Assembly: GCA_028288675.1 (NCBI GenBank)
Contig: JAQBNG010000134.1
Coordinates: 1 to 44,936, forward strand
Reading direction: 5' to 3'
Length of the DNA stretch: 44,936 bases
Source of the DNA: Flavisolibacter sp.
GTDB lineage: Bacteria > Bacteroidota > Bacteroidia > Chitinophagales > Chitinophagaceae
The notes beneath the pieces were generated by a model. The model did no database searches. It saw only the letters and a program-made list of their open reading frames with translations, and was not told the origin of the DNA. The position numbers and the translations under genes were made by a program. Positions 332 to 4,373 of this stretch are shown in pieces. Numbering within the stretch: the stretch's first letter is position 1; each line of letters begins with the position of its first letter.

Positions 332-1531
332 TTACCATTCGATATTCTCCCGTTTCCACAAATCATCAAGGGGGCTTGGCAGATTTACAAGGTGTTCTTT
401 TCGTACATGCAGGTAACGCTCAGTTGTTTTAATGCTAAAATGACCAAGCAGGTCCTTGATATACCGGATATCAACACCCTTCTCCAGCAAATGAGTGGCA
501 AAGCTGTGCCGCAGGGTATGAAAGCTGACCTGCTTAAGAATTCCCGCCTCCTGCCTGGCCAGTTGAAAAATGCGCTGTGCACTTTTGGAACTATAGGGCT
601 GCCCCGGCAATTGCCCTTCAAAAAGATAGTGTTGCGGGCGGGGGGTGCACTGCTTTATATACATTCGTAAAACATCGAGCAGCACAGGGCTTAACGCTGC
701 CATCCGATCCTTTTTGCCCTTAGCCCTCTCAATAAAAAGTTGCATGCGGCCACTGTCAACGTCAGCAATTTTTAAATGAACCACTTCGCTTACCCTAAGG
801 CCGGCGCTGTAAGCAGTAAACAAAATGGCTTTGTGTTTTCGATTGGCAATGGCGTTAAACAGCCTGCCCAGTTCCGTCTCTCCTAAAATTTTTGGAAGCT
901 TCAAAGGCCTTTTGGGCCGCGGTAGTTCAAAATAGAGCCTGTCCCAACCCAGTACCTGTTCAAAATAAAATTTCAAAGCATTAATGCGGCTATGAATGGT
1001 GGCCTCGCTCAATCCCTCTTTTGCAATGCAGTGGGCTACATAGCCTCTTAGCCGTGCAGGCGTTAAACTGTTTACCGGGTGATGCTTTAGCAGCCGCAGC
1101 AGGGCCAAAAATTCGTTTCGATAGGTTTTAACCGTACTGGGGCTGTATGCCTTAAGGGTGAGCAGCTGTAAAAAAGAGCCAAGGGCAGCCAGGTTGGCCT
1201 CGCAAAGAGTGGTACTTAGTAAAAGTGAAGCTTGGGTTATGCTTACCACCTTTTGTGGGTTAGCGCCCTTGTTGGGGAGCAACACTTTCCTTTGCCTTAA
1301 ATAGTGTTTTAGTGCACTTACCTCAAGGGTAACGTTCAATGCGCCAAATGCTTTTTTGAGGAGGCTGTAATGTTGCCTGCTAAAGGGCAGGTACCAACAG
1401 CGTTGTGTCTGCGTCCATTTTGCACCAGGGAGTTTTTTTATCGCAGTGGTGATTGTTGGGTCTGTAGTAAAAAACAGAGCAATACTTTCCTGGCCGCGGT
1501 GGTACAGGGGACGAAGCGTGACAGTTACCAT
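332..1531 (-). CDS. Tyrosine recombinase / site-specific integrase
   Basis: A 399-residue tyrosine recombinase that would cut and rejoin DNA through a 3'-phosphotyrosine. The catalytic set is complete: R246 in AYSAGLRVSEV, K271 in the RAKGKKDR hairpin, H338 and R341 in FHTLRHSF, H364 in LLGHFSIKTT, and nucleophile Y373 in ERYLHV. A SAM-like core-binding domain lies at about 110-200 (YSPSTVKTYRNEF). In front of it is an extra N-terminal module of about 75 residues with the pattern KWTQTQRCWYLP, which could be an arm-type DNA-binding region; this is inference. The catalytic half resembles XerC/D and integron-type enzymes, but the extra N-terminus and the accessory setting argue against the housekeeping Xer protein. 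About 440 bp upstream of its start lies an array of 21-bp tandem repeats. Confidence 0.93.
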   Translation of the reverse strand: MVTVTLRPLYHRGQESIALFFTTDPTITTAIKKLPGAKWTQTQRCWYLPFSRQHYSLLKKAFGALNVTLEVSALKHYLRQRKVLLPNKGANPQKVVSITQASLLLSTTLCEANLAALGSFLQLLTLKAYSPSTVKTYRNEFLALLRLLKHHPVNSLTPARLRGYVAHCIAKEGLSEATIHSRINALKFYFEQVLGWDRLYFELPRPKRPLKLPKILGETELGRLFNAIANRKHKAILFTAYSAGLRVSEVVHLKIADVDSGRMQLFIERAKGKKDRMAALSPVLLDVLRMYIKQCTPRPQHYLFEGQLPGQPYSSKSAQRIFQLARQEAGILKQVSFHTLRHSFATHLLEKGVDIRYIKDLLGHFSIKTTERYLHVRKEHLVNLPSPLDDLWKRENIEW

Positions 1532-3216: not shown

Positions 3217-3477
3217 TCCGGCGGCTGCTGATTTTTTGAAAGGGAAAGCGGCAGAACGGAGATGCCTTTCTTTAGGGGTAAAAAATAAGGGTAGAAAAGG
3301 CGATAGTTGAATAGCGATAAGAACCTTGAAGAGGGCGACGCAACAAAAGAGTTATAGTACCTCCTAAGCCGGGTACATAATAAACATTGTTTTAAAGTAA
3401 TAATAGTAACAGAAAAGTTTTTTCAACTTAAGTCTCCCGCCCCAGGCAGTGGACAGGAGATCTGGCATTACAAGCGG
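3217..3477. other. Non-coding DNA between terminator and rnpB
   Basis: About 260 bases with no reading frame I would call. The last part is upstream DNA of the RNase P RNA promoter. Confidence 0.4.
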
Positions 3478-3485
3478 TATATTTG
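3478..3485 (+). promoter_or_regulatory. -7 element of rnpB promoter
   Basis: TATATTTG matches TAnnTTTG exactly. It ends about five bases before the predicted 5' end of the RNase P RNA, the spacing expected for a Bacteroidota primary-sigma start. I do not see a convincing -33 TTG. Confidence 0.55.
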
Positions 3486-3594
3486 CCGCACTGCAAGCTG
3501 CGCTATCGTGTGGTGTTTTTTACATCATAAGGAAAGTCCGGACAGCACAGAGCAACGCATCCCGCTAACTGCGGGACTGTTTGTTACCAATGTA

Positions 3595-3635
3595 ATCCGA
3601 TGTTATCCTGAGCTTGTCGAAGGATGTTGAAGGAT
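3595..3635 (+). repeat. Dispersed palindromic repeat inside rnpB, copy 1 (P9 position)
   Basis: Core CCTGAGCTTGTCGAAGG within nested arms ATCC...GGAT and ATCCT...AGGAT. It sits at the tip of the helix GTTACCA (3583-3589) / TGGTAAC (3639-3645), which occupies the P9 position after the P8 hairpin. The core resembles a palindrome dispersed in many bacterial genomes; read on the other strand it gives the familiar peptide SFDKLRIT. Confidence 0.85.
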
Positions 3636-3880
3636 CACTGGTAACAAGCACGAGACAGTGCCACAGAAAATTACTGCCCACTTGTTGGCAACAACAAAGG
3701 TAAAGTTGAAAACGTGGGGTAAGAGCCCACGGCTGTTGAATGGTAACATCAACTTCGGGTAAACCTTGCGTGCTGAAATGCCAAATATACCAATGCCTGA
3801 GGGCTGCTCGCCTGAGTTGGGTGGGTAGGCAGATAGAGGTAAGCAGCAATGCTTATCCCAGATAAATGATAGCGGTTGTT

Positions 3881-3941
3881 GTCCGATGTCATCCGATGTT
3901 ATCCTGAGCTTATCGAAGGATGTCGAAGGATGTTGAAGGAC
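3881..3941 (+). repeat. Dispersed palindromic repeat inside rnpB, copy 2 (P19 position)
   Basis: Second copy, core CCTGAGCTTATCGAAGG, one base different from copy 1. It has nested arms GTCC/GGAC (3881-3884 and 3938-3941), ATCC/GGAT and ATCCT/AGGAT, so the whole insert can fold as one extended hairpin. It lies between CR IV and CR V, where many bacterial RNase P RNAs carry the optional helix P19. It contains extra partial units (GTCGAAGGATG, GTTGAAGGA), suggesting internal duplication. Confidence 0.85.
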
Positions 3942-4127
3942 GGCATTACACAGAATCCGGCTTACAGGCTTGCAGTTTTTATTTATGTTTAGCAGGGAAA
4001 CCGGACTGTCTTGTAATTTTCTTAACCATGCTTCTCTAATGTGATACACGGTTTGTGAACAAGAACCTTAGCGTATGCTATTTTTCTTCGCCTTTGGATT
4101 ATATTGAGGGCTAAACCAAAACAAATT

Positions 4128-4373
4128 ATGCCACAGGTATGCGTTCTTGAATTTGATAAGAAAGATAGACTCTTTAAAGTGCTTTCATCACGTGTGCATC
4201 TATCATCGGTGCCTACCGCCGGAGATAAATTTACAATGAAAATAAAAGATGTGGGCTACATCTTTGATGTGTACGATGTTCATTATGCGCATAACAAGCA
4301 AATTGATGTAAACGTAGTTCGCATAAGCAATATTGAATCTTATCACTCCTGTGGATTCCACGACATTAGGTAG
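4128..4373 (+). CDS. Small protein of unknown function
   Basis: 81 residues (MPQVCVLEFDKKDRLFKVL... ending ...YHSCGFHDIR). The ATG at 4128 is preferred over an in-frame TTG at 4104 because it follows an A-rich leader (AAACCAAAACAAATT) typical of this genome. The sequence alternates charged and hydrophobic residues as in a small beta-rich fold, with no signal peptide and no membrane segment. I do not recognise a family. It stands alone between rnpB and a gene on the other strand. Confidence 0.6.
   Translation: MPQVCVLEFDKKDRLFKVLSSRVHLSSVPTAGDKFTMKIKDVGYIFDVYDVHYAHNKQIDVNVVRISNIESYHSCGFHDIR

Follow-up and report, generated by a model that had tools for sequence, protein, structure and literature searches.

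A dispersed palindrome at the tips of helices P9 and P19 in the RNase P RNA of a Flavisolibacter species and other Chitinophagaceae

RNase P RNA is an essential ribozyme that trims tRNAs. In the window, by which the whole analysed stretch of 44,936 bases from a Flavisolibacter sp. genome is meant, its gene rnpB lies on the forward strand at 3490-3980. The Rfam search matched the class A model RF00010 there over its full length (model positions 1-367 of 367) with 220 bits and an E-value of 3.3e-70, which on score places the gene in the family, given a gathering threshold of 100. The sequence-only reading of this DNA had put rnpB at 3489-3976 and had suggested a check against the class A model. 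By this model, the gene is 491 bases long, and the matches in other genomes range from 328 to 522 bases (n = 54). It is the single rnpB match in the 4.74 Mb assembly, which is 99.82 % complete. Since only one match was obtained and the model is fully covered, the possibility of a pseudogene accompanied by a second intact copy was rejected.

Directly 5' of the RNA, a candidate -7 box, TATATTTG, was read from the sequence at 3478-3485 (+). It fits TAnnTTTG, which the excerpted text of PMC9723704 gives as the Bacteroidota -7 box consensus. A scan of 3300-4150 for sigma-70 type promoters returned no promoter-like site, and this type of promoter and terminator scan gave no terminator-like site 3' of rnpB. 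Further upstream, a tandem array at 1974-2212 can be described with a unit of 21 bases (10.2 copies, 65 % matches) or of 63 bases (3.8 copies), and a 399-aa frame at 332-1531 (-) presumably encodes a tyrosine recombinase, judging by its motifs. On the strand opposite to rnpB, a mechanical open reading frame at 3603-4049 (-) reads HPSTSFDKLRITSD across the P19 palindrome.

Two helices of the RNA are extended by related inserts. The extended P9 at 3578-3650 (+) was recognized as an inverted repeat and by the fold of 3581-3651; its host arms, 3578-3592 and 3636-3650, flank an insert at 3595-3635 (+) with the unit ATCCGATGTTATCCTGAGCTTGTCGAAGGATGTTGAAGGAT, which was delimited by alignment and self-repeat comparison and carries the palindrome core CCTGAGCTTGTCGAAGG at 3607-3623 (+). 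The extended P19 at 3877-3945 (+) has an outer stem of 3877-3884 and 3938-3945 in the fold of 3869-3949. According to the alignment, its insert at 3881-3941 (+) comprises the unit of the P9 insert plus extra 10-base steps, with the core CCTGAGCTTATCGAAGG at 3903-3919 (+). The outer borders of both inserts are approximate because the comparison included no closely related strain that lacks them; the nearest other rnpB in the tree described below has 77 % identity to that of the window.

The two cores, which form the tips of P9 and P19, are exact copies of the 17-mer CCTGAGCTTRTCGAAGG. With up to three mismatches allowed, these are the only two sites in the 44,936 bases; the mean expectation is 0.05, and none of 100 shuffles had two. 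The palindrome copies described in the sequence-only reading are thus present in both helices and nowhere else in the window. That reading had also held that each insert folds on itself, which applies to the whole arms but hardly to the palindrome. The P9 arm (3581-3651) folds with a z-score of -3.03 and the P19 arm (3869-3949) with -2.38, with 3 and 4 of 200 shuffles being as good, whereas the lone 17-mer as RNA reaches -0.3 kcal/mol and a z-score of +0.86, equalled by 147 of 200 shuffles. The inserts can be aligned with each other over about 40 bases with few changes. They have the 25-mer ATCCGATGTTATCCTGAGCTTRTCG in common, which at up to three mismatches occurs in just these two places of the genome, both in rnpB, and the P19 insert matches itself in register at 10-base steps.

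A genome-wide count of the 15-base core CTGAGCNTRTCGAAG, as suggested by the sequence-only reading, gave 21 copies in the own genome compared to none for the reversed control. The core is present in 138 of 394 sampled genomes of the family, the own genome included, with 2102 copies when summed by hand, while the control gave 2 hits. The loci fetched provide 43 distinct contexts, not all of them independent: the bases directly beside the core can pair in 41 of these, using four pair types, and those one position further out in 32, whereas pairing out of register, tried in six ways as a control, gave 3-18 of 43. A stop-to-stop frame of more than 1,000 nt runs over 2 of the 21 copies, counted as frames in the stretches fetched rather than as gene calls. 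In one other genome, G348, palindrome arrays with periods of 25 and 17 bases were seen on contigs C46 and C29 (L162, L163).

These properties recall REP elements and their RAYT genes, where the REPs are described in the excerpted texts of PMC3733652 and PMC6006769 as short imperfect palindromes that are dispersed. The palindrome resembles them in being short and imperfect with arms kept complementary, as well as dispersed, multi-copy and mostly outside long reading frames. In contrast to REPs, it has no consistent GTAG or CGTC foot: TGTCA stands beside the core in 16 of 21 copies, GTAG in one (L156) and CGTC in none. It further differs in that a linked RAYT gene was not found around the transposase matches of the own genome, and in that two copies lie in a structured RNA gene. 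The element is thus REP-like in appearance, yet it departs from the REP definition in two points, the foot and the linked gene.

The palindrome also overlaps with Flavo-1 (RF01705), likewise a dispersed hairpin repeat of Bacteroidota, but a longer and separate element. At least 48 Flavo-1 matches were found in the own genome, 43 of them above the cut-off, a lower bound as 150 of 1014 candidates were scored. In 13 of the 48, including one under the cut-off, lie 13 of the 21 core copies, each at most 4.5 bases from the centre and in both orientations relative to Flavo-1. The other eight, including both rnpB copies, are outside the listed matches, and the covariance search of the window gave no Flavo-1 match, with RNase P alone reaching its gathering score. 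Despite the two orientations, the overlap may in part reflect the spread of one composite. In the excerpt of PMC9723704, a transcriptome study, Flavo-1 hits are sense and antisense alike, and no function is drawn from them there.

Comparison with relatives addresses the question of whether the helices are ancestral. Among 17 genomes of the same genus, 15 gave an rnpB match. Allowing up to two changes, the core is found in P9 of none of these 15 and in P19 of two (G006 and G014), where its orientation is reversed. Helices shared by all relatives had been named beforehand as a sign of ancestry, but P9 and P19 of most relatives are unrelated in sequence. For this reason, an ancestral origin of the sequence was rejected, and insertion is the better fit. 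In addition, just 10-11 bases take the place of P19 in 19 of 114 distinct rnpB, although this sample is uneven. P19 is thus dispensable, which fits the tolerance of an insert.

When the genomes of 84,980 species (contigs of at least 3,000 bases) in a collection were scanned for the core in either orientation at 3-33 bases from CR V, seven loci besides the own genome emerged: two each in Flavisolibacter and Niabella, and one each in Ginsengibacter, a Chitinophagales MAG and Mycolicibacterium. The Mycolicibacterium locus (L064), the sole match outside Bacteroidota, was dismissed as a chance match in an ordinary GC-rich P19. The MAG locus (L063), whose rnpB is identical to that of G257, has a copy of the palindrome in each of the two helices, as in the window. 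Within the family, the 394 genomes were searched twice by helix length, which returned a long P19 in 26 and a long P7-P9 in 41, mostly due to other sequences. The palindrome or a variant of it was found in P9 or P19 of 12 further genomes, with at most one change in 8, so that the window is not an isolated case. In P9, it is exact in G348, differs by one change in G130 and G257 and by two in G243 and G407; G112 has a related P9 end with three changes. In P19, it is exact in G006, G084, G157 and G257, differs by one change in G014 and G274 (changes in the latter read by eye) and by two in G313, while G180 combines a decayed P19 palindrome (three changes) with one in P3 (one change). Together with the window, this amounts to 13 of 394 genomes (14 with G112), which is a lower bound because the searches selected long helices only. 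No rnpB was obtained from G300. A looser search with one mismatch on both strands matched 20 of the 114 distinct rnpB, while its reversed control matched 5 of 114; core matches away from a helix tip (L024, L032, L034, L038, L095, L096 and L103) were dropped as chance.

Other length variants were seen alongside. The P3 palindrome of G180 (L186), located 5' of CR I, reads TGAGTTTATCGAA, and its variant GAGTTTATCGA is also present in P9 of the congener G243. P12 is greatly lengthened by GC-rich hairpin sequence in L041 and L042 (G011 and G016). Other palindrome types lengthen P19 in G113, G353, G362, G377, G028 and G125, for example CCCGCC..GGCGGGT or TCATTGCGA..GCGAAGCAA, and the one in G028 starts with CGTC.

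States with and without the palindrome occur within single genera. In genus g113, G257 has it in both helices, G130 in P9 only and G205 in neither; the P19 of G257 occupies the place of ATAGCCCACG, which lies 5' of CR V in G130 and G205. In genus g67, it is found in P9 only in G348, in P19 only in G084, and in neither helix of the seven others read. On a tree of the 114 distinct rnpB, for which P9 and P19 had been largely left out, a minimum of 6 gains or losses is required for P9 (7 if G112 with its three changes is included) and of 7 for P19, with L189 (G274) not being part of the tree. If the count is limited to cores that differ from the 15-base core by no more than one change, which omits G243, G407 and G313 (two changes) and the P19 of G180 (three), the minima are 4 and 5. 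The tree is weak, with 95 % support on 30 of 111 inner branches and long branches in four rows, and a shared origin of the cases in g113 and g81, if it applied, would lower the larger minima by one or two. Taken at face value, the palindrome has apparently been gained several times at the tips of P9 and P19 in the family.

Whether rnpB is a favoured target depends on the null model. At least seven exact core copies lie within rnpB in six of the 394 genomes (two in the own genome; the others are G006, G084, G157, G257 and G348). If copies could fall anywhere, assuming an rnpB of 400 bases and a mean genome of 4.4 Mb, 0.19 would be expected, and the probability of six is 6e-8. If they are restricted to intergenic DNA, assumed to be 8-15 % of the genome, 1.3-2.4 would be expected with P between 0.002 and 0.035; when the ten genomes with over 41 copies each are excluded, P lies between 9e-5 and 7e-4 at 8-12 % intergenic DNA. 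The enrichment over the intergenic-only null is modest. These values indicate that helix tips of rnpB accept copies no less readily than free intergenic DNA, while the evidence for any stronger preference is not firm. It is quite possible, although we lean slightly away from it, that hairpin tips are preferred landing sites: the palindrome caps Flavo-1, P9, P19 and, in one genome, P3, and would in Chitinophagaceae even have created a P19 where sister species have about ten bases, with the repeat repeatedly remodelling an essential ribozyme.

For the window itself, the history that we regard as probable starts with the insertion of a dispersed palindrome into one of the two helices, followed by copying within rnpB to the other and by lengthening of the arms. 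The REP-like palindrome, comprising the core and its complementary arms, would have entered first at the tip of either P9 or P19. The second helix would then have been reached by an intragenic copy through recombination or template switching, of which both mechanism and direction are our suggestion, and the arms would have grown in 10-base steps, possibly through fold-back synthesis or slippage. Most likely, one of the inserts derives from the other, since the shared 25-mer is restricted to the two inserts and the other exact core copies of the genome have different arms. The RNA is predicted to remain active because a palindrome at the tip would merely lengthen its host helix, and the insert is most likely a tolerated passenger rather than a gain of function.

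An addition compatible with this insertion and copying, which we consider doubtful, is that the palindrome owes its spread to a RAYT (TnpA-REP) family that targets hairpin tips. Y1_Tnp matches are present in 14 of 15 genomes searched, including five matches at four places in the own genome, and the central position of the 13 copies in Flavo-1 would suit such targeting, but these copies may have spread as a single composite. The core, searched as TGAGC-N2-4-TCGAA, is absent from the stretches fetched at all four Y1_Tnp places, none of which shows a RAYT gene with its own repeat on its flanks; a single near-copy was seen, some 600-700 bases away from one place. The usual TGTCA flank instead of GTAG or CGTC also speaks against a RAYT. 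Of the description of the palindrome as mobile-looking, the dispersal in 21 copies stands; a link to a mobilising gene was not found, and mobility is deduced from the dispersal.

The sequence-only reading had assumed two separate insertions, one in each helix, which now seems improbable. Singly occupied helices elsewhere, with P9 alone in G348, G130, G243 and G407 and P19 alone in G084 and G157, are in line with it. However, the 25-mer has no further match in the genome even at three mismatches, and the arm ATCCGATGTTAT is found in 0 of the 19 other exact core copies; both favour one insertion with within-gene copying. Least credible is convergence at the RNA level, in which the stem-loop would be a useful RNase P motif arising anew and would resemble dispersed repeats only secondarily: the same two helices are used recurrently across genomes and their whole arms fold well, but the identical 15-mer is dispersed outside rnpB too, the 17-mer RNA alone hardly folds, and the P19 palindrome occurs in both orientations (G006 and G014 read CTTCGACAAGCKCAG) and hence in differing RNAs.

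Judging by the title of a 1997 paper by Vioque, cited in PMC2858038, STRR repeats are said to lie within the RNase P RNA genes of heterocyst-forming cyanobacteria. This case, known by title, is the closest precedent, as both concern dispersed genomic repeats inside rnpB; the STRRs are, by that title, short tandem repeats of cyanobacteria, whereas the repeat in the window, from Bacteroidota, is palindromic, has complementary arms and sits at the tips of P9 and P19. Among the matches listed in a search of open-access literature, nothing on such palindromes in RNase P RNA was found. The window exemplifies a process that recurs in Chitinophagaceae, and length variants of rnpB should be treated with caution since they may be repeat insertions. 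Within single genera, the family provides a natural series in which the identical helix tip of RNase P RNA either bears a repeat or does not. Such a series allows a test of whether ribozymes extend their variable helices by repeat capture or by slow base change, and of whether or not repeats choose stem tips.
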